From the IMG/VR virus record IMGVR_UViG_3300005613_000430, positions 1-22,787 of that record: 22,787 nt of DNA. One strand, 5' to 3'. Both the position numbers and the translations under genes were made by a program. This document shows positions 5,565 through 22,234 of this stretch, in pieces. Under the pieces are notes generated by a model. The model was not told the origin of the DNA. It did no database searches and saw only the letters and a list, made by a program, of their open reading frames with translations. Numbering within the stretch: the first letter of the stretch is position 1; every line of letters starts with the position of its first letter. The stretch is from a virus.

Positions 5565-7271
5565 CTACTTATGATTTGGATCTAAGACCACATGTCCTTC
5601 TGAGATTTGGAATGGAACTTCCGTAAGGCGTCCGTATCTGCGGTCATAGTATAAACAAGATGCTACGCCAGCTCGTCCAGTGAGCCGGTTCTTCAGTACT
5701 CTAACAATAGTAGTATTAGCTTCATACTCACATGACGCTTGACGATCACGCTCAAGAGCAATGATGGTGTTTGGCACAGAAGCTAGACTACCCGAACCAC
5801 GGAGGTCCTGCAAGGTAATTCTAGTACCTTCTTCAAATGCCTTGTCGGTCTTCTTAAGTTGTGAAACAATATCTACATGCACACCAGTACGAACAGCCAA
5901 GGATCTTAGCTGCTTCATAACAGTATCAATAAGAATACGCTCGCTTTGGTGTTCATCATTATCATTACCCATAAGACCAGCTGCCAATGCAGTAATATGA
6001 TCTAGAATAATAACATCAACGCCTAGAGAAATAGCCATGTATTCCATACGAGCCATGATATTTTGCATGGCACTGTTACCTAGGTGGTCATAGATATATA
6101 GGTTAGTTTCTTCTAGCTTGGTCCTAGCAAGAGCGTATTCTTCTGAATCAAGATCATCAAAGAACTCAATGTTGATTGGATCCTTGCCCATCTTCTTACG
6201 AAGATCGTTCATGATCTTAGATGCTCTGATTGCTCGCACAGGCTTGTTGATCAATAGTGAGATCATGTCATCTCGCGTCTCTTCAGGAGACTCTTCGAGC
6301 ATGATCATACCTACTGATCTGCCTTCTTCAAGATGATGATGAGCAATCTCACGAAGAATAGTAGACTTACCGGAGCCAGTACCGGAGCACCAAAGGTTTA
6401 CCTCTCCGCTTCTCTGACCTAGTAAGAACTCACTAAGGTTATCCCAAGGATAAGCATAGACCTCCATCTGAGAATCTTCTGAATCAATAATATCTTTTAC
6501 ATGAAGAATCTCGTCTGGGGAGTAAAGCTTGGCTTGGAAAATTGCATTGACAACTGCCTTGCTATCCGAAGATACAAGACACTCATTGGCATCCTTTCTA
6601 GGAAGCGATGCAATCTTAGTGCGACCAGGTGGAAGGAGCTGAGCACACTTGACAGCAGCTTCTCTACCTGCATCATCATTATCAAACATCAAGACAACTT
6701 CTGGGAACTTGGAGATCCACTCAAGGTTGTCCTTAATGTTGTTCTCTGCATTACCTGTACCACCATTGAGTGATACTACGGGCCAACCACCGTTGACTTG
6801 ATAGACGCTCATAGCGTCGATCTCACCTTCAGTAATGACCAACCGACGACTGTTGCTGCCATCGAATAGATGCTGACCAAAGAGGCCAGCACTGCGGGAT
6901 TCGCCTCGCCACCTGAACTGCTTGTCAGGACCACGATACTTCTGTGCTACAAGTGTACCATTAGAATAGAAGTTAGCAATATGAATATCGCCCTTCTCGG
7001 GGTGGTTAATTACTTGGTAGTTAAACTTGCGTAGTGTATCTTGGTTTAGTCTACGTTCTGGGAGATCTGTAGACTCGCCATACAACGGTTTCCATTCGCC
7101 CATTGTCTTCCGAACTGTGATCACTTTATCACCTTTTTCATAATACTTACACCTATAACAATACGAATGACCATCGCTGTATTTTGCTAGGTTATCTTCA
7201 GAGTTGTCATGCCCTTCAGCTGCGCACTTAGGACATTGATCTCTGGCTACAACGTAACTATCTTCATTCAT
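5565..7271 (-). CDS. bifunctional primase-helicase, T7 gp4-like
   Basis: A 568-residue protein, the same size as T7 gp4 (566). The zinc-binding domain uses C13, C16, C38 and C41 (CPKC, CYRC). The Toprim primase core has VITEGEIDAMS (E148) and FDNDDAGRE (D197, D199). The RecA-type helicase has Walker A CSGTGSGKST (297-304), a Walker B strand VDVIILDHITAL, the QLKK sensor, and DLRGSGSLASVPNTIIALER, which closely matches the T7 block before its arginine finger. It primes lagging-strand synthesis and unwinds DNA as a ring ahead of the polymerase. Its start overlaps the RusA stop as TAATG. The zinc finger implies primer-site recognition; the recognised sequence is not deducible. Confidence 0.97.
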   Translation of the reverse strand: MNEDSYVVARDQCPKCAAEGHDNSEDNLAKYSDGHSYCYRCKYYEKGDKVITVRKTMGEWKPLYGESTDLPERRLNQDTLRKFNYQVINHPEKGDIHIANFYSNGTLVAQKYRGPDKQFRWRGESRSAGLFGQHLFDGSNSRRLVITEGEIDAMSVYQVNGGWPVVSLNGGTGNAENNIKDNLEWISKFPEVVLMFDNDDAGREAAVKCAQLLPPGRTKIASLPRKDANECLVSSDSKAVVNAIFQAKLYSPDEILHVKDIIDSEDSQMEVYAYPWDNLSEFLLGQRSGEVNLWCSGTGSGKSTILREIAHHHLEEGRSVGMIMLEESPEETRDDMISLLINKPVRAIRASKIMNDLRKKMGKDPINIEFFDDLDSEEYALARTKLEETNLYIYDHLGNSAMQNIMARMEYMAISLGVDVIILDHITALAAGLMGNDNDEHQSERILIDTVMKQLRSLAVRTGVHVDIVSQLKKTDKAFEEGTRITLQDLRGSGSLASVPNTIIALERDRQASCEYEANTTIVRVLKNRLTGRAGVASCLYYDRRYGRLTEVPFQISEGHVVLDPNHK

Positions 7272-9989: not shown

Positions 9990-12336
9990 CTTCGATGTCC
10001 GATTTGAATCGTTCAAGTAAGGGTTCTTTGTGTATTTCATAAAAAGTGTTTACCAAAGCGTCTCTCATAATAGGGACGGAAGAACAGGGACATCCAAATG
10101 AATCATGGATCATAGAGTAATGAGTTACTCCGTGTTCCTTCATCTGGTTGATTGTCTTCATCATGTGCGCTGCATCAATGCTGTGAATATAATTAGGAGG
10201 TACAGCTTGAACAGCTAGGTTAAGTGCTGGGTTCTTTGTATCCTCTACTACGCTTAACTGTAAGCGAGAATTACGATACATATGCGTGTCAAGCACTTTG
10301 ATCTTTTCTTGAGTATATCTATTGACTACTCTGAATCCGGTAGGAGTAACCCAACTGGCGTGTTTTCCATGAGCAACACATAGCTCTGTCAAATCTTGCA
10401 GGAATATCTTGCCTGTATTAGCTGACTGCAATGCACCGTCTAATGCTAAACGAATGATCACAGCTAATTCATTGACTGCTTGTGTCTTTTGGGATCCATC
10501 GTTAATCCACTCAAGGTGTCCCTCTTCTCTACAATATCGTCTGATACCATGATCGGTAATACCGTAGGCATCGCACATTGTAGATCTCTTGACTACCTTT
10601 CTTGGAATGCTTTGTTCCCAATACTCATAGAAAATTTCACGCCACTTGGTTTCTCCACCCTTGCAGATCTCTGTAGCTACATCTGCAACCAGTTGATATA
10701 GATCACCTGGTACATCATTTGGAGCTACGTTGACCTTTGTTGCAAGGTCAGGATCACGCATGATAGCCGACCAATGTTGGCTACCATTGCACGATCCGTC
10801 GAGTTGCACGGGAATGCTAGAGTATCCAGTATCCAAAGCTTTTGCTAGATCAATTGCAGCAGCTAAGCGTTGGAAACTTGGATTCTTTTTGATGGTATTA
10901 TTATCCATCCACTCTGTATTATCATATGGATCTTCAGCAATTGCTTTGATATTCTGTAGATTAGCCTTGACCCATTGGACACGGTCGTCGAAAGAGACCT
11001 TGTCACTCGCTGGGCCTAAACCGAAGTCTACACCATCAAAGGTATTTGCTACATGAACCATAAGCCAATACAGTCCTTGCTTGGTTACTTTACATGGTGA
11101 GGCGAACTGAATCAACCCACGATCAAAGTCACCGCTCTGAGGACTCAGCATTTCCGTAACGGTGTATGCTCGGCCTCGGAAGTCCATAGTATAAGCGTGA
11201 TAGAAGAATCCTGTCTTGGTTAATTTACGTGCAAGATTAAGACGAATTTCCATTTGGGCACGCTTTTGAACTTCTTTGTACCACTTAGCATACTGATCTT
11301 CCTTGTCCCGTTTCCACGCTAGTTTCTCCTCTGATGTTCCCTCTTCAGGATAAGGACGAAGGAAGGTGAACTCCTCGTAGTTATATGCTGGCATATTGCA
11401 TTCAGTAGAGTTTCTTTTGTAGATGGTTTCCATGACATCAAGGACCTTCTCATTGATGGTCCATTCTGTAGCTTGTAGTGTATTAATTGCATTCAAACAT
11501 TCTTGGCTTGCTTTGCTAATACCACCTACGGTCGGCTTTCGTCGATCCAGTAGCAAGCATCCACCAGGAATATCCTCGGTATGGGGCATTGGTGGAACAA
11601 GCATTGGTCTATACAAAAGACGAAGAAACTGATAATACTCATGCCTACGAATAAGTTCTAACATGATGTTAGGATCAATGCTGATTTCATTGTAGCTTCT
11701 TGGTTTGCCTGCTTCCTTGTATTGTTTTCTTTCTACATTAACAATACCATGAGCTTTAGCAATGTTAAGAAGACACGTACCTAAGTACAATGTTTGTTTC
11801 TTAGTCCAAGCTTGCAAAGAATCACAACGCTTTGTGAATCTATGAAATCTTTTACGATCCCAACGCTTTACATATTTGTTGACGTATTTATATTCTTCTG
11901 AATTGTTTAGCTTAGCATACTTAAAAGAAGCAATGAGCTTAGTTTCTTTTCCAATACGATAAGCAACAGAATAGAAGTTATCTACGCCATTTGCATGGAT
12001 CTTCTTACGAATGTCTCGACTGTCTACTAGGTCTTCAACAAGCTGTGAGATGACGATAGCAGCTAAGACATCAGAAGGGACAAGGAACAGGGCGGGCGCC
12101 CATTCGCGCATCCGCCCGTCCTTGTCAATCTCATCCTTAATAATATCAAATGATTTAGTACATTGACGAATAAATTCTTGGATGAGGTCTTGCTCAGCAG
12201 CACAGGAAGTCTTACAGTTTTCGTAGCCCTTCCAGTATTTATTCAAGGACTGCTCAGCTAATGTTTCTTCTAGATGATACTGATAAGTGTATCGCTTTTT
12301 CTTAGCTTCGTCATCAAGAGCGTTCCAACGATCCAT
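9901..12336 (-). CDS. T7-family single-subunit DNA-directed RNA polymerase, full length (RNAP 1)
   Basis: An 811-residue polymerase (T7 gp1 has 883). The N-terminal 320 residues carry TPxxKP-like and PPMPHTEDIPGG segments typical of the promoter-binding half. The catalytic core is complete: MDFRGRAYTV (D385-R389), motif A QLDGSCNGSQHWSA (D513), motif B RKVVKRSTMCDAYG (R579, K583, Y591, the exact spacing of T7 R627, K631, Y639), NYIHSIDAAHM, and motif C MIHDSFG (H744, D745). It ends FDISLVRHSEYLFG, like the aromatic foot of T7 RNAP. A strong AAGGAG lies 6 bases before the ATG at 12336. It should transcribe phage genes from its own promoters and opens the replication block, as in T7. Confidence 0.97.
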   Translation of the reverse strand: MDRWNALDDEAKKKRYTYQYHLEETLAEQSLNKYWKGYENCKTSCAAEQDLIQEFIRQCTKSFDIIKDEIDKDGRMREWAPALFLVPSDVLAAIVISQLVEDLVDSRDIRKKIHANGVDNFYSVAYRIGKETKLIASFKYAKLNNSEEYKYVNKYVKRWDRKRFHRFTKRCDSLQAWTKKQTLYLGTCLLNIAKAHGIVNVERKQYKEAGKPRSYNEISIDPNIMLELIRRHEYYQFLRLLYRPMLVPPMPHTEDIPGGCLLLDRRKPTVGGISKASQECLNAINTLQATEWTINEKVLDVMETIYKRNSTECNMPAYNYEEFTFLRPYPEEGTSEEKLAWKRDKEDQYAKWYKEVQKRAQMEIRLNLARKLTKTGFFYHAYTMDFRGRAYTVTEMLSPQSGDFDRGLIQFASPCKVTKQGLYWLMVHVANTFDGVDFGLGPASDKVSFDDRVQWVKANLQNIKAIAEDPYDNTEWMDNNTIKKNPSFQRLAAAIDLAKALDTGYSSIPVQLDGSCNGSQHWSAIMRDPDLATKVNVAPNDVPGDLYQLVADVATEICKGGETKWREIFYEYWEQSIPRKVVKRSTMCDAYGITDHGIRRYCREEGHLEWINDGSQKTQAVNELAVIIRLALDGALQSANTGKIFLQDLTELCVAHGKHASWVTPTGFRVVNRYTQEKIKVLDTHMYRNSRLQLSVVEDTKNPALNLAVQAVPPNYIHSIDAAHMMKTINQMKEHGVTHYSMIHDSFGCPCSSVPIMRDALVNTFYEIHKEPLLERFKSDIEDVIGPIGLKVPTQGTFDISLVRHSEYLFG

Positions 12337-12401
12337 AGTTCTCCTTTTATGAGCTGAGGATAGGTATTCTCTCTTAGACTCAGGCGTTAACGACCGCGTT
12401 A
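12337..12401 (-). promoter_or_regulatory. leader region of RNA polymerase gene
   Basis: A 65-base gap between DUF932 and RNAP 1. It holds the palindrome CGTTAACG and a small CTGAG/CTCAG inverted repeat, then the AAGGAG ribosome site. A promoter or translational control of the polymerase is possible, but I see no convincing -10/-35 or T7-type consensus. Confidence 0.3.
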
Positions 12402-13259
12402 TCAGACCATAGAGAGAGCGGTCTTCATGACCTTTGCCGAAAGATTACCACGAGGACCAATGGCACAATCAATGAACCGTCGATCTACGTTGGGCTTACG
12501 GCCACGACTACCAGTGTTATGCTGGATATACTTAGTCACAGCGTTTGCTGCCAGCCAGAGAGAATCAGGCGCTCCCCTCTCTCGTTCCTCTTCATAAGTA
12601 TGAGTAGCATACTGAACAAAAGCGGTTAGCTTTGTCCGGTTAGTGTCTTCATCCTTAGTAAAGTTAACGACATGAGGGCTGACCTGCTTCCATAGTTCTT
12701 CGATCTTAGCTTGAGTCACATCGGTCTTGACCAATGCAGTTACCTGAGTCATAAAGTCCTTATGACTATGGGCAATGGCTTGGCAAGCATTCTTGAACTC
12801 TGAGAGCTTATACTCAAAGTCACCGTTATGACGGATCTTCTGAATAGCGTTATTATTCTTAGCGTTGTTGAAAGCTACTCGGAGCTGGTTCAAGCAGAAC
12901 AAACGGAAGTTAATACCAAGACCGTAGATTGAGGCACTACCGTCGAAGGAGTTTACAACCGTGAAGTTAGTCACGATTTGATCATCTCCAGGGAGTAGAG
13001 CTTGGGCAATAGGCGCTTGAATAATCATACGCTTACCGTCCCAACGGGTCTCAATGTTATCGCTGCCAGTGGTTTCAGCAACGAGATCATACGCTTCCAT
13101 AGGCTGCATGATTTGGTAATCAGGGCTTACTACGCCTAGTGGTTCTCCGGTCTCTTTGATGTAAGTAAATACATGACGAGACGAGGTAATGATACCGTCA
13201 GGACAATCACCAACGCCAGTCAGTGGATAAGTTTTAGCAACAGTGAATAGAGTGTTCAT
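12402..13259 (-). CDS. DUF932 family protein
   Basis: A 285-residue protein typical of phage and plasmid DUF932 members. Visible hallmarks are LGVVSPDYQIMQPMEAYDLV near 40-60, a beta core IVTNFTVVNSFDGSASIYGLGINFRLFCLNQL near 95-130, and a helical C-terminal half. The molecular function of the family is not established; members often sit near early or replication genes. GGAAA lies upstream of the ATG. The candidate promoter motif at 13274-13284 sits 15 bases upstream, so this gene may head its own transcript with RNAP 1 next in line. A 65-base gap follows before RNAP 1. Confidence 0.85.
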   Translation of the reverse strand: MNTLFTVAKTYPLTGVGDCPDGIITSSRHVFTYIKETGEPLGVVSPDYQIMQPMEAYDLVAETTGSDNIETRWDGKRMIIQAPIAQALLPGDDQIVTNFTVVNSFDGSASIYGLGINFRLFCLNQLRVAFNNAKNNNAIQKIRHNGDFEYKLSEFKNACQAIAHSHKDFMTQVTALVKTDVTQAKIEELWKQVSPHVVNFTKDEDTNRTKLTAFVQYATHTYEEERERGAPDSLWLAANAVTKYIQHNTGSRGRKPNVDRRFIDCAIGPRGNLSAKVMKTALSMV

Positions 13260-13273
13260 AGTGTTTCCATAGT

Positions 13274-13284
13274 GTGATAGTGAA
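13274..13284 (-). promoter_or_regulatory. candidate phage promoter or operator motif TTCACTATCAC (copy 1)
   Basis: The minus strand here reads TATTCACTATCACACTATGG in the 34-base gap before DUF932. Its 11-base core TTCACTATCAC also occurs at 20649-20659, in the other short gap right after the RNAP 2 terminator. The CACTAT part recalls the CACTATAG core of T7/T3/SP6 promoters. The two copies diverge outside the core, so this remains a candidate. Confidence 0.4.
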
Positions 13285-13530: not shown

Positions 13531-13699
13531 TTATATAATGATCCTTTAACATGTCGTAGTAATGGTTGCCTAAGTCACAAGTGGAGTCAAGGTCTCCTTC
13601 ACGGATGGACTGGCACAGGCTCCATACTACATCGACCCATGTAGTGTGTCGGATCCACGCTTTGGGATCTTCGTCGCCGGGGTCATGATTATCTGTCAT
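13514..13699 (-). CDS. hypothetical protein, 61 residues
   Basis: A small acidic protein, MTDNHDPGDEDPKAWIRHTT, then WVDVVWSLCQSIREGDL and a helical end. Longer upstream starts exist in the frame, but AGGAAA before the ATG at 13699 decides for this one. It overlaps the upstream gene by 11 bases and the downstream one by 17. Function is unknown. Confidence 0.65.
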   Translation of the reverse strand: MTDNHDPGDEDPKAWIRHTTWVDVVWSLCQSIREGDLDSTCDLGNHYYDMLKDHYINEPTE

Positions 13700-13877: not shown

Positions 13878-13890
13878 AAGTCTCCTTTAA

Positions 13891-13974
13891 TACCGTTGGT
13901 GGGACTCGAACCCACAAGGCCCTAAGGCCGTCAGATTTTAAGTCTGATGCGTATGCCAATTCCGCCACAACGGC
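13891..13974 (-). tRNA. tRNA-Leu (UAA)
   Basis: An 84-base class II tRNA. The acceptor GCCGTTG pairs with CAACGGT (one G-U). The anticodon arm CAGA-CTTAAAA-TCTG gives UAA, followed by a long variable arm (GGCCTTAGGGCC region). The T arm is GTGGG-TTCGAGT-CCCAC. CCA is not encoded. It reads UUA, an A/T-rich codon. It lies 4 bases after tRNA-Arg. Confidence 0.95.
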
Positions 13975-13978
13975 ATAG

Positions 13979-14052
13979 CACCCCGAGTAGGACTCGAACC
14001 TACGACCTGCTGATTAGAAGTCAGCTGCTCTATCCAGCTGAGCTACCGGGGT
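13979..14052 (-). tRNA. tRNA-Arg (UCU)
   Basis: A 74-base class I tRNA. The acceptor ACCCCGG pairs with TCGGGGT (one G-U). The D arm is GCTC-GAGC, the anticodon arm GCTGA-CTTCTAA-TCAGC gives UCU, and the T arm is GTAGG-TTCGAGT-CCTAC. Discriminator G; CCA is not encoded. It reads AGA, a codon often rare in hosts but used in AT-leaning phages. It starts 5 bases after the DUF4241-like gene. Confidence 0.96.
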
Positions 14053-14057
14053 AGAAT

Positions 14058-14357
14058 TTACCAATCATCGTCCTCATCATCATAGTGATCTTCAATAAAA
14101 GTAATAGTAACCGACTTTACTCTTCCTGAGTGAGAATCATGTTCAATCTCTACTGGGTAGCGTCCGTCGCCGTAGCCAGAGTTGATACAAAGGCCTATAC
14201 CTTCGCCAAGCGGCTTGTTAACGCTTTTATTGTTATCTAGCTTATCACAAAAGTCAGTAATCCAGTCACGAACTCGTGAGCTTGCGTCATCACCCATGAC
14301 ATAGCAAGGGTCACCAATCCAGATACATCCAGCATCTACGTAAACATAGTCAGCCAT
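14058..14357 (-). CDS. DUF4241-like protein
   Basis: A 99-residue protein with VYVDAGCIWIGDPCYVMGDD near the start and CINSGYGDGRYPVEIEHDSHSGRVKSVTITF later. The 'xGDPCYV...GDGxYPV' pair is what I recall of DUF4241-type phage proteins, whose function is unknown. It ends in an acidic tail (EDHYDDEDDDW). Two adjacent ATGs exist; GGAG is 6 bases from the second (14357), chosen here. It overlaps the upstream gene by 8 bases. Confidence 0.75.
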   Translation of the reverse strand: MADYVYVDAGCIWIGDPCYVMGDDASSRVRDWITDFCDKLDNNKSVNKPLGEGIGLCINSGYGDGRYPVEIEHDSHSGRVKSVTITFIEDHYDDEDDDW

Positions 14358-14571
14358 CATTGTCTCCTAGTAGCATAACGCCGTATGAGAGAAACTGCGT
14401 AAAGGACTTTCTTGTCCAGATCCATGAGTATTGGTCAACATTGTGTTCGTATTCTAGATCGTCCCAGCAAGTATAGACGCCGAGAGAGTGCAAAACGCCG
14501 CTGTCATCAATACCAAAGTATTCTGTTTCCGGCCATGCACGATCAATTTCTTTCTTTTCGTTTATATTCAT
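14350..14571 (-). CDS. hypothetical protein, 73 residues
   Basis: It starts MNINEKKEIDRAWPETEYFG, then GVLHSLGVYTCWDDLEY and an aromatic-rich end (YSWIWTRKSFTQFLSYG). Unrecognised. Its ATG overlaps the stop of the small basic gene as ATGA, and GGAAAG lies upstream, supporting coupled translation. Confidence 0.7.
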   Translation of the reverse strand: MNINEKKEIDRAWPETEYFGIDDSGVLHSLGVYTCWDDLEYEHNVDQYSWIWTRKSFTQFLSYGVMLLGDNDG

Positions 14572-14705
14572 CGAATACGCTTTCCATTACCACGTCGTGA
14601 AGTACGAGCTGGCTTGTTGCCCTTATTCTTCTTACTCCTTCGTGGTCGTCCAGGCTTTAAGCCTCGCATCATATCCTTGTTACCTACACTGGTACGTCCT
14701 GCCAT
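14568..14705 (-). CDS. very basic small protein, 45 residues, putative nucleic-acid binder
   Basis: The product begins MAGRTSVGNKDMMRGLKPGR, followed by PRRSKKNKGNKPARTSRR and GNGKRIR. Seventeen of 45 residues are Lys or Arg and there is almost no hydrophobic core, so it is probably disordered and binds RNA or DNA. A clear AGGAG lies 8 bases before the ATG, and the stop overlaps the next start (ATGA). Both make a real gene likely in spite of its size. A role in RNA binding, condensation or inhibiting a host nucleic-acid enzyme is inference. Confidence 0.75.
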   Translation of the reverse strand: MAGRTSVGNKDMMRGLKPGRPRRSKKNKGNKPARTSRRGNGKRIR

Positions 14706-14835
14706 TGATTATTCTCCTTGGGTTTAATGAAAGCTGCATCCGACGGGATTGATTACCTGCATCTCTTCTTTATCAGATGAAGTGTTTTGGTTAAACTACG
14801 GATGATTAACTAACAAGTTCTTAATAGGTTTCTGA

Positions 14836-14925
14836 TTACTCGTGGTGATGTTTTCCAAAAGGTAAAGTAACAAAAGCAATGATGATTGCTATACACCAAA
14901 GAACGGTGGACATTATAAATCTCAT
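14836..14925 (-). CDS. single-pass membrane micropeptide, 29 residues
   Basis: The frame MRFIMSTVLWCIAIIIAFV, then TLPFGKHHHE, has one hydrophobic segment (about residues 3-21) and a short His-rich tail. GAAAGG lies 6 bases before the ATG, directly after tRNA-Ile. It could be a small membrane-acting peptide (lysis helper, superinfection exclusion) or noise; the ribosome site and clean membrane profile favour real. Confidence 0.5.
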   Translation of the reverse strand: MRFIMSTVLWCIAIIIAFVTLPFGKHHHE

Positions 14926-14939
14926 TATATACCTTTCAA

Positions 14940-15020
14940 TGCACCGAGCAGGATTCGAACCTGCGATAAATGACGGCGATTATAAGTCACCCGCTACATG
15001 CCAACGCAGCTTATCGGTGC
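14940..15020 (-). tRNA. tRNA with anticodon UAU (Ile), atypical shape
   Basis: The acceptor GCACCGA pairs perfectly with TCGGTGC; the T arm GCAGG-TTCGAAT-CCTGC is perfect. The anticodon arm GGTGA-CTTATAA-TCGCC gives UAU, reading AUA. Oddities: an extra base between acceptor and D arm, a 5-bp D stem (GCTGC/GTAGC) and a 10-base variable region without a stem, for 81 bases in all. Most bacteria read AUA with a lysidine-modified CAU tRNA, so a UAU tRNA is unusual. The isotype is from the anticodon only. Confidence 0.7.
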
Positions 15021-15027
15021 CAAATAG

Positions 15028-15093
15028 ATGCCCGGTGGGATTCGATACCCACATTCCCTCCATCCCGGAGGATCTTATCTTAGATGACGGGCA
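15028..15093 (-). tRNA. degenerate tRNA-like element
   Basis: It sits 7 bases upstream of tRNA-Ile. TGCCCG (15088-15093) pairs with CGGGCA (15029-15034) as an acceptor, and GTGGG/CCCAC closes a T-arm-like hairpin with an 8-base loop (TATCGAAT) near TTCGAAT consensus. The centre folds as CCTCC/GGAGG with only 5 loop bases, lacks U33, and the D arm is reduced to 3 bp without GG. At 66 bases it cannot be a normal tRNA. It is either a decayed tRNA or a tRNA mimic. Confidence 0.45.
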
Positions 15094-15117
15094 AGAATAG
15101 ACCTCAGACAGTGTGCT

Positions 15118-15161
15118 GGCTGCAACTATCCGGAGTTTCCGGATAGTTGAGCCTCGCAGCC
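15118..15161. repeat. two-part hairpin with 11-bp perfect inner stem
   Basis: The inner stem AACTATCCGGA (15124-15134) and TCCGGATAGTT (15138-15148) is perfect with a GTT loop. The outer stem GGCTGC (15118-15123) pairs with GCAGCC (15156-15161), leaving a 7-base bulge GAGCCTC on one side. There is no T-tract on either strand, so it is not a plain intrinsic terminator. It could be an RNase III site, structured RNA or cruciform. Confidence 0.7.
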
Positions 15162-15223
15162 GGGGTCGGGCCTGCCCTCTCGGACAGGCGGGGTGATCTA
15201 AGAAAGGCAAAAAGAGATGCTTC

Positions 15224-15267
15224 TAACTCCAATTCACCTCCAATTCGACTCCAATTCGACTCCAATT
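15224..15267. repeat. four tandem 11-bp iterons (AATTGGAGTCG on minus strand)
   Basis: Four head-to-tail copies occupy 15257-15267, 15246-15256, 15235-15245 and 15224-15234. The first two are identical (AATTGGAGTCG); the third is AATTGGAGGTG and the fourth AATTGGAGTTA. AATTGGAG is invariant. An 11-bp period is about one helical turn, so a protein binding each copy would line up on one face of the DNA. Confidence 0.85.
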
Positions 15268-15288
15268 GCAGGCGAGGTTAGTCATCAT

Positions 15289-15350
15289 TACGGTTTTGTA
15301 CGTATTTCTACGTTACTATGCTTCTCTGTACTTGTTTCTACGGTTTTGTA
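15289..15350. repeat. direct repeats TACGGTTTTGTA (x2) and TTTCTACG (x2)
   Basis: TACGGTTTTGTA occurs at 15289-15300 and 15339-15350 (50 bp apart). TTTCTACG occurs at 15305-15312 and 15335-15342 (30 bp apart). They lie in the AT-rich part beside the 11-bp iterons and may be further protein sites. Confidence 0.65.
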
Positions 15351-15363
15351 AGCATTTATTGAT

Positions 15364-15379
15364 TTTCCGGATCCGGAAA
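15364..15379. repeat. 16-bp perfect palindrome TTTCCGGATCCGGAAA
   Basis: Perfect dyad symmetry with no spacer, sharing the TCCGGA core with the hairpin at 15124-15148. A dimeric DNA-binding protein site is plausible. In an otherwise AT-rich stretch it stands out. Confidence 0.7.
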
Positions 15380-15467
15380 TACAAAGCAAACTAGAAATCC
15401 AACATGCTGCATGATCACAAAATAAGGTGCTTTGTGGCTGTTTTAAAGACATAGTCACCATAAAAGG

Positions 15468-15515
15468 TGTGACAAAACGTTAAACTTGGTTACTAATGAC
15501 CGACATTTTGTCACA
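15468..15515. repeat. 10-bp inverted repeat TGTGACAAAA / TTTTGTCACA
   Basis: Exact arms at 15468-15477 and 15506-15515 with a 28-base spacer, starting 6 bases from the 3' end of tRNA-Lys. The nearby GTCACC/GGTGTGAC pair (15455-15473) repeats the same GTGAC theme. A bipartite operator, or a processing structure for the tRNA transcript, would fit. Confidence 0.65.
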
Positions 15516-15520
15516 GCTAA

Positions 15521-15593
15521 TGCCCCCAGCTGGACTTGAACCAGCGACCAGCGGATTAAAAGTCCGATGCTCTACCAACTGAGCTATGGAGGC
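15521..15593 (-). tRNA. tRNA-Lys (UUU)
   Basis: A 73-base class I tRNA. The acceptor GCCTCCA pairs with TGGGGGC (one U-G), the D arm is GCTC-GAGC, the anticodon arm CGGA-CTTTTAA-TCCG gives UUU, and the T arm is GCTGG-TTCAAGT-CCAGC. CCA is not encoded. It begins 6 bases after the stop of the citrate-synthase-like gene and is followed by the repeat-rich gene-free region. Confidence 0.96.
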
Positions 15594-15599
15594 GTAACA

Positions 15600-16115
15600 T
15601 CAAAAGCCCATAGGCTTGTACTCTTGTTGATAGATTTCTGTCCATGCTCTGAGCCGTGCTTCAACAACAAGGCTCATGCCCATGTACGAGGGCATGTCTA
15701 GTAGATCTGCGGTGATTGCTGTAACAATAGCAGCATTAGGAAACAAAGGCTTATCCGTATACTTTTGCACTTCTTTGGTTAGAGAGTTTAGATTCTCTAC
15801 AATTTCTGTTGGCAACGACTTAAGATACCAAGAAACTTGTGGATCTTCCTGTCCCTTAAACCAAGAACTACCAAAGCCTGGGACCACATTCTTTGTATAC
15901 CACGTATGCATGTGAGTATCTTTATTCTCATTAAACAAAGACCACACATTACTTGCTGCTTGGATAGGAGCATGAATAGTGTTTAGACTAAGCAACGCAG
16001 CAGCCAATGCATCGTTGAATGGCTTACCTAAGTTAGCCATTGCACGAAGAATAGCAGTGCTTGCATTGTTCCTAAACGCCATCTCTGTGTGCATGTTTAC
16101 AAACTCATCAATCAT
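15600..16115 (-). CDS. short citrate-synthase-fold protein lacking two catalytic residues
   Basis: A 171-residue protein whose blocks match, in order, the C-terminal part of citrate synthases: NASTAILRAMA (17-27), LSLNTIHAPIQAA (42-54, H48 at the His274 place of pig enzyme), VVPGFGSSWFKGQEDPQ (77-93), KPLFPNAAIVTAI (122-134) and VEARLRAWTEIYQQE (151-165). In active enzymes GFG is followed by His (His320) and PN by V/I and Asp (Asp375); here these are Ser83 and Ala129. So the fold is suggested, but the normal chemistry is probably lost. Full enzymes have about 430 residues. GGAA precedes the ATG. Roles such as binding acyl-CoA or interfering with a host enzyme are inference. Confidence 0.6.
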   Translation of the reverse strand: MIDEFVNMHTEMAFRNNASTAILRAMANLGKPFNDALAAALLSLNTIHAPIQAASNVWSLFNENKDTHMHTWYTKNVVPGFGSSWFKGQEDPQVSWYLKSLPTEIVENLNSLTKEVQKYTDKPLFPNAAIVTAITADLLDMPSYMGMSLVVEARLRAWTEIYQQEYKPMGF

Positions 16116-19053: not shown

Positions 19054-19641
19054 CTAGTTTTGTTCTTTAGTTAAAATGGTTGACCATTGCTGTGCCATAG
19101 CATCGGCAACGCCTTGATAAGTCAGTGACCTAAGCTTAGCTCGTTCTTTAGAAGGAGGTAGTTTAAAGATACGTTGCTCTCTGCCTTCTACAACATTACT
19201 AGGAGTAAGCAGAGGTAGATTCTTTAACCAAAGACATGTAGCTTTTGTTTCTGGGTGACCAAACATCCAAGGTTGGATGATTTGATCCGGTTTTCTATAA
19301 TAAGTAGACATAATCCCAATAGGGTTTTCAATGCATGTATACTTTACATGGGACAATTCTGTAAAAAGCCTAAAGAAATCTATGCCCTGTTGCTGTCTTC
19401 CGTCCTTTTTCTTTTTCTCAAACCAACGAGCACCACTAGACGCTAGGTGAGTACAAGGTGGAAAAGCAATGACCATATCCCAACTATCTTGAAGAAGATC
19501 TGTAACGTCTCCTTGATAATGAGCAAGATCTTGACGACCTTCGCAGGGCAAAAGATCACAAGATATTGCCTCATGACCATACTCTGCAAAAGCATCACGA
19601 ACTCGCCCACTATATTCACAAGCAATCAGAATCTTAGCCAT
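19054..19641 (-). CDS. phage DNA cytosine-methyltransferase-like protein
   Basis: A 195-residue protein. The start MAKILIACEYSGRVRDAFAE holds a SAM-loop-like CEYSG (8-12). VIAFPPCTHLA (58-67) matches motif IV with the catalytic Cys of C5-cytosine methyltransferases (C63), and CIENPIG (103-109) resembles motif VI (ENV, here ENP). FGHPETKATCLWLKNLP is a block I know from phage methylase-like proteins. It is far shorter than bacterial enzymes (over 300) and has no clear target-recognition domain, so true methylation is uncertain. A perfect AAGGAG, 7 bases before the ATG at 19641, lies in the last codons of the lysozyme gene. Possible jobs are genome protection or altering host DNA. Confidence 0.75.
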   Translation of the reverse strand: MAKILIACEYSGRVRDAFAEYGHEAISCDLLPCEGRQDLAHYQGDVTDLLQDSWDMVIAFPPCTHLASSGARWFEKKKKDGRQQQGIDFFRLFTELSHVKYTCIENPIGIMSTYYRKPDQIIQPWMFGHPETKATCLWLKNLPLLTPSNVVEGREQRIFKLPPSKERAKLRSLTYQGVADAMAQQWSTILTKEQN

Positions 19642-20101
19642 TAAGATACTCCTTAACTTTCTCCCAATACTTGAGAGTGGCACGCTTCTTATACCCGTTA
19701 GGTCCGCCGTTATGAATACGAGCGATGTCTTCGTATGTAGGTTCATGACCTAGACGAGAAACAGTAGCGTACCGATCCATATAAGCCCTAAAAACAGAAG
19801 AGGCGTACTCCAGATCAGATACTCTAGAATACGGGCCTTCAACGTTGGAGTCTGCATGATATCCCCTATGAATCTGAAGGGGGCCGAGAGCAGCACCGCC
19901 ATCACCAAGAATTGGACCCATACGACCACCTGTTTCCACCATGTGGATAGCATGGATGATACGATCCCAATCAACAGTCTTCTGATCTGATGTAGTCATC
20001 CTCGTCATCGTTGTTTGAGTATTCGTCGTAGTACTCGTCGAGTTCGACATACTCAGAAAGAGTGTCAAGGATGCTGCTAGGGTTGTAGAAATGAGGCTCA
20101 T
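19634..20101 (-). CDS. lysozyme / lytic transglycosylase-like endolysin
   Basis: The catalytic domain is clear: IIHAIHMVETGGRMGPILGD, with the likely catalytic Glu at residue 56 from the chosen start, then GAALGPLQIHRGYH, and a C-terminal ARIHNGGPNGYKKRATLKYW block, the SLT/goose-lysozyme-like layout of phage muramidases. It should cut peptidoglycan. The start is uncertain: the ATG at 20101 gives a hydrophobic signal-like stretch (LISTTLAASLTLFLS) and a Thr/Ser linker, but overlaps the acidic gene by 131 bases; ATGs at 20011 or 20002 would give a shorter cytoplasmic form, and 20170 a longer one. No convincing ribosome site helps. Confidence 0.8.
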   Translation of the reverse strand: MSLISTTLAASLTLFLSMSNSTSTTTNTQTTMTRMTTSDQKTVDWDRIIHAIHMVETGGRMGPILGDGGAALGPLQIHRGYHADSNVEGPYSRVSDLEYASSVFRAYMDRYATVSRLGHEPTYEDIARIHNGGPNGYKKRATLKYWEKVKEYLNG

Positions 20102-20201
20102 CTTCGTTGTCTCTATTGATTCGATAAAGAAGTTCGTCAAGATGTTCTGGATAACTAGGATCCAGACCATAAGAATGCATTAGCTCTTCGAAATCATTCA
20201 T
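19971..20201 (-). CDS. hypothetical acidic protein, 76 residues
   Basis: It starts MNDFEELMHSYGLDPSYPEH at the lipoprotein stop, with overlapping ends. The second half is strongly acidic (YVELDEYYDEYSNNDDEDDY). GGAA lies about 9 bases upstream of the ATG at 20201. Unrecognised. Its 3' half shares DNA with the N-terminal part of the lysozyme frame, so one of the two starts or both frames need checking. Confidence 0.6.
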   Translation of the reverse strand: MNDFEELMHSYGLDPSYPEHLDELLYRINRDNEDEPHFYNPSSILDTLSEYVELDEYYDEYSNNDDEDDYIRSEDC

Positions 20202-20648: not shown

Positions 20649-20659
20649 GTGATAGTGAA
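20649..20659 (-). promoter_or_regulatory. candidate phage promoter or operator motif TTCACTATCAC (copy 2)
   Basis: The minus strand reads GAGTTCACTATCACGCCGTT, sharing an 11-base core with 13274-13284. It lies 110 bases upstream of the next start, just beyond the RNAP 2 terminator, where a new promoter is expected. Nearby, on the plus strand, TAACGGCGATAGT and TAACGGCGTGATAGT form an imperfect direct repeat (about 20627-20656). The remaining bases of the 20540-20728 gap hold no gene that I can support. Confidence 0.4.
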
Positions 20660-20728: not shown

Positions 20729-20774
20729 CTCTAAAAGCAAAGGGGCGATCCCAGCCATAAGCCAGGACCGCCCC
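20729..20774 (-). terminator. strong intrinsic terminator after RNAP 2
   Basis: On the minus strand GGGGCGGTCCTGGC (20774-20761) pairs with GCTGGGATCGCCCC (20755-20742) over all 14 positions (three G-U pairs), with a 5-base loop, followed by TTTGCTTTT. It lies 8 bases after the RNAP 2 stop, so it should separate the first transcript from the rest. Confidence 0.9.
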
Positions 20775-20782
20775 TGCGGTGG

Positions 20783-22234
20783 TTAGAGTCCAATGCATCG
20801 CCCGATGGGTAGCATTGGAGCGTTTCGTTGAATAGGGAAGTTGCTGAGTTGGCTATGCACTGCAATGTAGCCTTGCTGCACGACACGCTTTAGGTCGAGA
20901 GCCTTGTCTGGGGTAGTGAAGAAAGCATCATGCACTACGCCAAGCGTGCTGTCCCAGTTGTCAATGACGTATCGAACAACAGCGGCATCCAGACTATGCA
21001 CCATGTTAGGCATGGCACCAGCAGCACCTACTGCTTCCTTGGCTTGTTCGTCTTCAGTGATGAGACGCTTGGCAATGAAGCCATCAGGAGTAGTCCAGGC
21101 AAAGACACTCTTATCTGTAATCATGCAATGAGTAAAGTATTGCACACACATGTTACGAAGAATGGCAATGCTTTCGAATTCGTCAAGCATGGTCTTCTGA
21201 CAACGCTTGACAAACTCAACGAGGTCATCATAGGTAAACTGCCGAGTACCGATGAAGATGCTGGATTTGTCATTAGGCACAAAAACGCCTTCGTCAGTCA
21301 GTTCGCCATCGCCGCCATGATCCAGCCAATATCCAGATGCAATACCGTTAGCACCGGATCCATAGCCAGTGAGCATGACAATCTTCTTGGCAAATTGTCG
21401 AGCTTGCCTTTGATTGCCTTTGAACAGTTCATCAGCAATGTCATTTGTTTCTGCCACGTTGACATACAGATCTCCGTCTTTGTCATTGAGTGTGACATTG
21501 ACGGCTTTGGCAAGCTTATTATCGCCCATGATCAGAGCCATGTGTTGGAAGCCCGAGCACGTGGCATCTTGCTCAAGCATGTAATCAGTCTTACCAGTAG
21601 ATGCAATTTCTACAATAGCAAGAGCAGCACGAACAGCCATCCAGTCCAGGGCACCGTTGCCATCAAACTTAGGATTGTCCAGAAAGTCCTTAGCAGCTTT
21701 GATATCAGTAGGCCAGCCCTCATGCTCAAAGATCTTAAGCATATAATCAAGAGCCTCGCCTTCAACAAGCACTGCTTCAGGAGCCGACAGAGACGCTCTG
21801 CTGAGCTTGTTGTTCTGAAGGGATCCCCACTCTCCAGACATGTGATAAACCCTTCCACGCCAATCGTAGAAGGTATCACAATAGATTACTTGGCCACGCT
21901 TGCGGTACAGTGCACGAAAGGTACGCTCAATGGCATCTTGCCAAGTCTTTCGTTGTTCGTCGCCCTTAGGGAATACCTTCGCAAGGTAGTCAATAAAAGT
22001 AGAAGAGACACGGAAGCCTTGCTTAGCCAGCTTATCCAAGACACGATAATGAAGCGTATCTTCAGTAGGAGCAAAGGGGCTACGAGAGATCATCGGTCTG
22101 GTGCTGCCAGGCTTTACGGGTGTATCGCTTGGCAAAGCCTTGTTGAACACACGGCCATCATCTTCAATACCCGTATCAAAATCTGAGTTGATGAATCGGT
22201 TGTATGCAATAGCCGACAGTTCGTTAATGATCAT
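20783..22234 (-). CDS. second T7-family RNA polymerase, N-terminally truncated (RNAP 2)
   Basis: A 483-residue protein with the full catalytic core of single-subunit RNA polymerases: FYDWRGRVYHM (D124-R128), motif A LEQDATCSGFQHMAL (D223), motif B RQFAKKIVMLTGYG (R279, K283, Y291, spaced exactly as T7 R627, K631, Y639), PNMVHSLDAAVV and motif C VVHDAFF (H435, D436). Only 123 residues precede DxRGR against 420 in T7, so the promoter-recognition N-terminal domain is missing. All catalytic residues are kept, arguing against decay. AAGGA precedes the ATG, which overlaps the upstream stop (ATGA). It resembles the large subunit of N4 RNAP II (gp16), which needs a partner. It shares little with RNAP 1 outside motifs. 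Confidence 0.93.
   Translation of the reverse strand: MIINELSAIAYNRFINSDFDTGIEDDGRVFNKALPSDTPVKPGSTRPMISRSPFAPTEDTLHYRVLDKLAKQGFRVSSTFIDYLAKVFPKGDEQRKTWQDAIERTFRALYRKRGQVIYCDTFYDWRGRVYHMSGEWGSLQNNKLSRASLSAPEAVLVEGEALDYMLKIFEHEGWPTDIKAAKDFLDNPKFDGNGALDWMAVRAALAIVEIASTGKTDYMLEQDATCSGFQHMALIMGDNKLAKAVNVTLNDKDGDLYVNVAETNDIADELFKGNQRQARQFAKKIVMLTGYGSGANGIASGYWLDHGGDGELTDEGVFVPNDKSSIFIGTRQFTYDDLVEFVKRCQKTMLDEFESIAILRNMCVQYFTHCMITDKSVFAWTTPDGFIAKRLITEDEQAKEAVGAAGAMPNMVHSLDAAVVRYVIDNWDSTLGVVHDAFFTTPDKALDLKRVVQQGYIAVHSQLSNFPIQRNAPMLPIGRCIGL

Follow-up and report, generated by a model that had tools for sequence, protein, structure and literature searches.

Two single-subunit RNA polymerases (RNAPs) are found in N4-like phages, the virion RNAP (vRNAP) and RNAPII (PMC4496689). 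N4 RNAPII divides its motifs between two subunits, with DxxGR in gp15 and A, B and C in gp16; its N-terminal part is reduced, it binds single-stranded DNA only and shows no specificity, and its recruiter is the single-stranded DNA-binding protein gp2 (PMC4496689). Lactococcus phage KSY1 also encodes two T7-family RNAPs, gp014 and gp033 (PMC11476376). Both match PF00940; the shorter one, gp014 (610 aa), lies in the early region, and the divergent gp033 (820 aa) is encoded close to the packaging genes. Short T7-family RNAPs are further found in the Chaseviridae (631 aa in Erwinia phage Berlingot and 648 aa in phiEcoM-GJ1), where no full-length T7-type enzyme was seen beside the RNAP in the region read. 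The Autographiviridae RNAPs (T7, LUZ100, Syn5 and others) all have an N-terminal domain and a full specificity-loop region. To our knowledge, phage and mitochondrial single-subunit RNAPs all possess promoter-reading parts or a dedicated factor.

The window analysed here, a virus fragment of 22,787 bases, carries two T7-family RNAP genes, the full-length RNAP1 and the much shorter RNAP2 (Table 1). The original prediction implied that two such enzymes in one phage were unique, which does not hold since N4 (vRNAP and RNAPII) and KSY1 (PMC11476376) each have two. We found no report in the open-access literature of a single-subunit RNAP lacking the specificity loop, or of a reduced core paired with a complete T7-type enzyme.

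Table 1. Positions of the RNAP genes and associated features in the window.
Feature	Position	Strand	Remarks
T7-type primase-helicase (TOPRIM + DnaB_C), the phage's own primase	5565..7271	-	
RNAP1, full-length T7-type RNA polymerase, 811 aa	9901..12336	-	PF00940 at 1.6e-77
Class L promoter-like element (GTCGTTAACGCCTGAGTCTAAGAGA), just upstream of RNAP1	12370..12394	-	
DUF932 gene, behind a class E element, directly before RNAP1	12402..13259	-	
Class E element TTCACTATCAC, just upstream of the DUF932 gene	13274..13284	-	Syntenic copies at G002 12640 and G001 1977
Class E element TTCACTATCAC, intergenic, past the RNAP2 terminator	20649..20659	-	Syntenic copy at G002 4503
Intrinsic terminator directly 3' of RNAP2	20741..20775	-	16-pair stem, then T-rich tail
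RNAP2, T7-family RNA polymerase	20783..22234	-	483 aa, ATG start; PF00940 and PHROG matches
DWRGR motif of RNAP2, residues 124-128	21851..21865	-	Motif alignment
Small ORF upstream of RNAP2, 72 aa	22231..22449	-	Stop overlaps the RNAP2 start (ATGA)

Catalytic residues of RNAP2

RNAP2 matches the Pfam family RNA_pol PF00940 (1.2e-20) and the PHROG RNA polymerase (3.4e-35), and has the features of the T7-family single-subunit RNAPs: DxxGR, motifs A, B and C, the Asp pair, the Arg/Lys and the Tyr. The catalytic residues D124-R128 (DWRGR), D223, R279, K283, Y291 and D436 are all present, together with H413, the equivalent of T7 H784, which with the Tyr is responsible for ribonucleotide selection in T7 RNAP. 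All of these residues are identical in the RNAP2 ortholog of a second phage contig, IMGVR_UViG_3300030328_002066 (69.5 kb, hereafter G002). Thus, the predicted second single-subunit RNAP with all catalytic residues kept is found exactly at its reading frame, in the same phage as a full-length enzyme. The residues were also predicted to stand in T7 spacing, which is only approximately so: T7 places the Arg of motif B 90 residues after motif A, compared with 66 for RNAP1 and 56 for RNAP2. The AlphaFold model of RNAP2, with low confidence (mean pLDDT 62) and PDB matches to mitochondrial and T7 RNAPs, supports the fold family only; the phiEcoM-GJ1 RNAP is likewise an apparent fold match to this model.

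The terminator behind RNAP2 is strong, as predicted (shuffle z = -5.2). An analogous terminator also lies 3' of the G002 ortholog, and two near-identical terminators there flank RNAP2 plus one small gene. The predicted early place of RNAP2 in the gene order was borne out, the gene being located left of RNAP1, in the early region, in both the window and G002.

Missing recognition elements

The alignment comprised RNAP2 and 20 further single-subunit RNAPs, among them the RNAP1 copies. Only 123 residues precede DxRGR in RNAP2, compared with 212 in the Chaseviridae, 235 in N4 gp15, 257 in KSY1 gp014 and 309-456 in the T7-like phage enzymes. The N-terminal promoter-binding domain of the Autographiviridae type, with the AT-rich loop and the intercalating hairpin, is absent, in agreement with the original prediction that the promoter-binding half is lacking. 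The reduction goes beyond that description. The specificity-loop region (TPDGF to PNMVHS) is halved: both RNAP2 copies have 22 residues there, whereas every other enzyme aligned has 38-65 (46 in T7), so that no Autographiviridae-type specificity loop is present between TPxGF and PNxxHS. The tail from the catalytic HD is short too, 49 residues vs. 73 in T7 and 63-73 in the others (44 in KSY1 gp014).

RNAP1 groups with the Autographiviridae RNAPs, whereas RNAP2 lacks their N-terminal domain and half of their loop region. The short RNAPs of other phages differ from RNAP2 as well: KSY1 gp014 has a loop region of 65 residues, and the Chaseviridae enzymes have a full-size loop region and C-terminal tail (Berlingot, which BLAST matches weakly to RNAP2, has ~210 residues ahead of DxRGR and 54 in the loop region). 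Like N4 RNAPII, RNAP2 is a minimal T7-family RNAP whose N-terminal part is reduced, and both are products of early-region genes in phages that have another single-subunit RNAP. However, the N4 enzyme consists of two subunits with 673 aa in total, whereas RNAP2 is one chain of 483 aa that contains all motifs and for which no subunit was found. Contrary to the prediction that N4 uses such a core, the domains are split differently between gp15 and gp16 (PMC4496689), and gp16 keeps a specificity loop, with a loop region of 38 residues. RNAP2 thus falls outside the N4 RNAPII family, because the N4 enzyme keeps the loop and its DxxGR sits in the partner subunit. The companions differ too, N4's other enzyme being the giant virion RNAP, which is not T7-type, and RNAP2's being the T7-type RNAP1. 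N4 RNAPII is promoter-blind without factors (PMC4496689), as RNAP2 may be.

An HMM of N-terminal domains, built from eight enzymes and run on every reading frame of both the window and G002, matched nothing but RNAP1, a search that very distant partners could escape. The ORFs directly upstream of RNAP2 are different, non-orthologous genes in the two phages. The 72-aa ORF of the window is not a partner conserved by position because its G002 ortholog is located elsewhere, and it was rejected as a fixed RNAP2 partner.

Relatives, selection and origin

RNAP2 is known from two sequences, both on metagenome contigs. A DNA pattern for the short loop (W followed by a codon starting with A, then TPDGF, with PN..H within 16-26 residues) matched one contig, G002, among 2.9 million viral contigs, and the variant pattern for the T7 form, in which the codon following W starts with G (TGGG...), matched none of them; the two scans covered A- and G-starting codons at this place. 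A DNA pattern specific to the RNAP2 family matched G002 alone, automatic peptide patterns gave no relative or G002 only, and the short-loop pattern had no match in 85,000 bacterial and archaeal genomes. Protein searches of 50,697 phage records with RNAP2 returned only weak matches, nearly all of 20-26% identity, to ordinary longer RNAPs.

A conserved truncation in a relative, the absence of which would have told against the original prediction, is present in G002. The ortholog there has 484 aa and 60% identity and is collinear, with the same start and no internal indels; the 483 aligned codons leave a difference of one N-terminal residue. RNAP1 in G002 has 811 aa and 75% identity. The two genes are ~9 kb apart in G002, in the same order as in the window and with conserved neighbours. 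A third contig (G001, 24 kb) has an RNAP1 of 86% identity and begins past the RNAP2 region. Comparison of the two RNAP2 genes showed differences of 0.33, 0.24 and 0.61 at codon positions 1, 2 and 3, with a dN of 0.36 and a saturated dS. As judged from these sequences, RNAP2 is a protein maintained under purifying selection.

These comparisons bear on whether RNAP2 is an artefact, namely a frameshift, a mis-assembly or a decaying gene cut from its N-terminal half. The window ends 553 bases upstream of the RNAP2 start, as would suit such an origin. However, G002 is an independent contig with the same start, length and synteny, it continues for 2.9 kb upstream with no N-terminal domain, and the gene is under purifying selection. 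A frameshift to an upstream N-terminal half, which the original prediction had named as the finding that would overturn it, was not encountered: the ortholog starts alike, and neither genome has an N-terminal-domain homolog other than RNAP1 by HMM. The ortholog and the selection lead us to reject an artefact as highly improbable.

In the trees, RNAP2 is on a long branch apart from RNAP1, which speaks against a recent duplication of RNAP1 as its source. However, an AU test does not reject RNAP1 and RNAP2 as one clade (p = 0.21), so that RNAP2 may or may not have arisen from RNAP1.

Two classes of intergenic motifs

Two directional classes of intergenic motifs were found, L (TTAACGCCTGAGTCTAAGAGA) and E (TTCACTATCAC). 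In the window, G001 and G002 alike, the class L element, which is highly conserved and 25 bases long, precedes RNAP1 by ~30-35 bases. Its copies outside the window are at 13570, 26616, 46889 and 69145 in G002 and at 2864 and 15192 in G001, those beyond RNAP1 preceding later gene blocks (one in G001; at the dUTPase, the terminase and the right end in G002). All copies lie at RNAP1 or to its right. The class is also present at corresponding places in 11 more IMG/VR contigs with G002-matching genes, which do not span the RNAP2 region and neither support nor weaken RNAP2. A hairpin promoter of the N4 vRNAP type was rejected for class L. Two of the G002 copies and the one in the window lack an intact palindrome GGCGTTAACGCC, so the conserved feature is the sequence and not a hairpin. 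Class L is probably the RNAP1 promoter; the annotated phage promoter of LUZ100 lies just before the RNAP gene, in the same position as class L relative to RNAP1.

Class E was discovered in the early region of G002 and then tested on the window and G001. Exact copies number four in G002 (0.01 expected), two in the window (0.006 expected) and one in G001 (0.006 expected), with none on the opposite strand of any of the three. Apart from one copy with one mismatch inside a G002 gene, class E occurs only left of RNAP1 in all three phages. The copies before the DUF932 gene are syntenic in the three phages and embedded in otherwise dissimilar intergenic DNA. One copy overlaps a 10-of-12 match to a sigma-70 promoter; reading of class E by the host RNA polymerase is possible, and the class might also be a regulator site. 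The genome is thus divided, with E in the region of RNAP2 and L from RNAP1 on, since E occurs only left of RNAP1 and L at RNAP1 and rightwards. The prediction of a stage-specific RNAP2 gains indirect support from these two promoter-like classes that split the genome at RNAP1.

Role of RNAP2

We tentatively favour RNAP2 as a factor-dependent early or middle polymerase core that works in a manner like N4 RNAPII, with RNAP1 driving the later genes from class L. Judging from its residues, RNAP2 would be an active, ribonucleotide-specific polymerase consisting of the T7-family core only, and it would transcribe part of the phage genome in early or mid infection. With the N-terminal domain and the specificity loop missing, neither binding nor melting of a T7-type promoter is expected; alone, RNAP2 would be unable to recognise or melt double-stranded promoters. 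By analogy with the recruitment of N4 RNAPII via gp2, it most likely depends on another protein, of the phage or the host, or on single-stranded or melted DNA, that would bring it to start sites. We infer that RNAP1 would then drive later genes plus its own gene from class L promoters. In favour of this view, the catalytic and ribose-selecting residues are invariant in two phages at 60% RNAP2 identity, the N-terminal domain, the specificity loop and the tail are all reduced, the terminator-flanked RNAP2 gene is found to the left of RNAP1 in both phages, and classes E and L keep to different parts of the genome. N4 RNAPII is, moreover, a precedent for a promoter-blind single-subunit RNAP that needs a factor and works on single-stranded DNA (PMC4496689). 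Counting against it, no partner was found, the upstream gene differs, one class E copy fits a sigma-70 promoter, RNAP2 is known from two metagenome contigs only, and its structure model is poor. Of the earlier interpretation, the complete, maintained second RNAP of the early region is supported, and the N4 comparison and the implied uniqueness are not supported as worded.

The main rival to factor-dependent transcription is replication priming, in which RNAP2 would act as a promoter-blind core on single-stranded DNA or R-loops and make RNA primers or replication transcripts, for instance at an origin, rather than mRNA. A core without recognition elements fits single-stranded DNA, the gene is early, and the phage has replication genes. 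However, the phage encodes its own T7-type primase-helicase with a TOPRIM domain, so RNAP2 may but need not serve as a primase; moreover, RNAP2 does not adjoin the replication genes in the window or G002, and we consider priming unlikely. The motif classes raise another explanation, that each RNAP has its own promoter class and that the RNAP2 core, either unaided or together with a small subunit or phage factor, reads the 11-base class E. E sites surround RNAP2 and end at RNAP1, where L sites begin, and the class E core resembles CTCACTATAG, the core of T7-type promoters. The N4 RNAPII promoter, in addition, is very short (-7 to +2; PMC4496689). However, the specificity loop, the reader of such cores in T7, is absent from RNAP2, and some E copies precede the RNAP2 gene, so that another polymerase would be needed to start the cycle. 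Reading of class E by RNAP2 therefore appears to us rather improbable; if it were true, RNAP2 would be the smallest promoter-using RNA polymerase that we know of. RNAP2 could also be a regulator or an interfering protein kept for binding, to the host RNAP, RNAP1 or SSB, and not a working transcriptase, as it is reduced and evolves faster than RNAP1 (60% vs. 75% identity). Binding alone, however, would not call for all the catalytic residues and the Tyr/His pair of ribose selection to be preserved, as they are in RNAP2, and we consider a binding role quite unlikely.

Being natural, maintained and pared down to its catalytic core, RNAP2 would reveal the minimum that a transcriptase needs. It would offer a small RNAP for study and RNA synthesis, and would hint at how the T7-like and N4-like transcription programmes relate. 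The E and L classes make the division of labour between the RNAPs directly testable.

Other features of the phages

RNAP1 and G002 show an Autographiviridae-like phage, with a T7-type RNAP, connector, capsid and tail tubular proteins and a one-direction genome; the giant virion RNA polymerase of the Schitoviridae was not found. G002 encodes a giant protein of 5014 aa at its right end (54051-69095), after one of 1414 aa, with no Pfam match above the cut-off and no PHROG. A third RNAP hidden in this protein was rejected, as searches against PHROGs, which include the vRNAP family, and Pfam gave no RNAP match; it is probably a virion or internal protein. A sigma-factor-like protein of G002 (10647-11228) matches the PHROG RNA polymerase sigma factor (6.8e-10), with Pfam Sigma70_r2 below the cut-off; no counterpart was found in the window or G001. 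A small conserved protein is encoded at 15600-16115 (-) in the window and 11218-11727 in G002, the latter with a weak match below the cut-off (3.4e-5) to PF00285, the citrate synthase C-terminal domain, which is odd for a phage.

ORFs overlap densely at 19.6-20.4 kb of the window, and a lysozyme-like ORF (Destabilase, PF05497) at 19634-20170 (-) overlaps other long reading frames. In Pelagibacter phage HTVC041P (820-3439), the annotation divides the T7-type RNAP between two genes that overlap, gp8 and gp9, so that it is either genuinely split or frameshifted. The window has tRNA genes at 13890-15593 (-), four in number (Leu-TAA, Arg-TCT, Ile-TAT and Lys-TTT) and conserved in G002, which adds a tRNA-Met.
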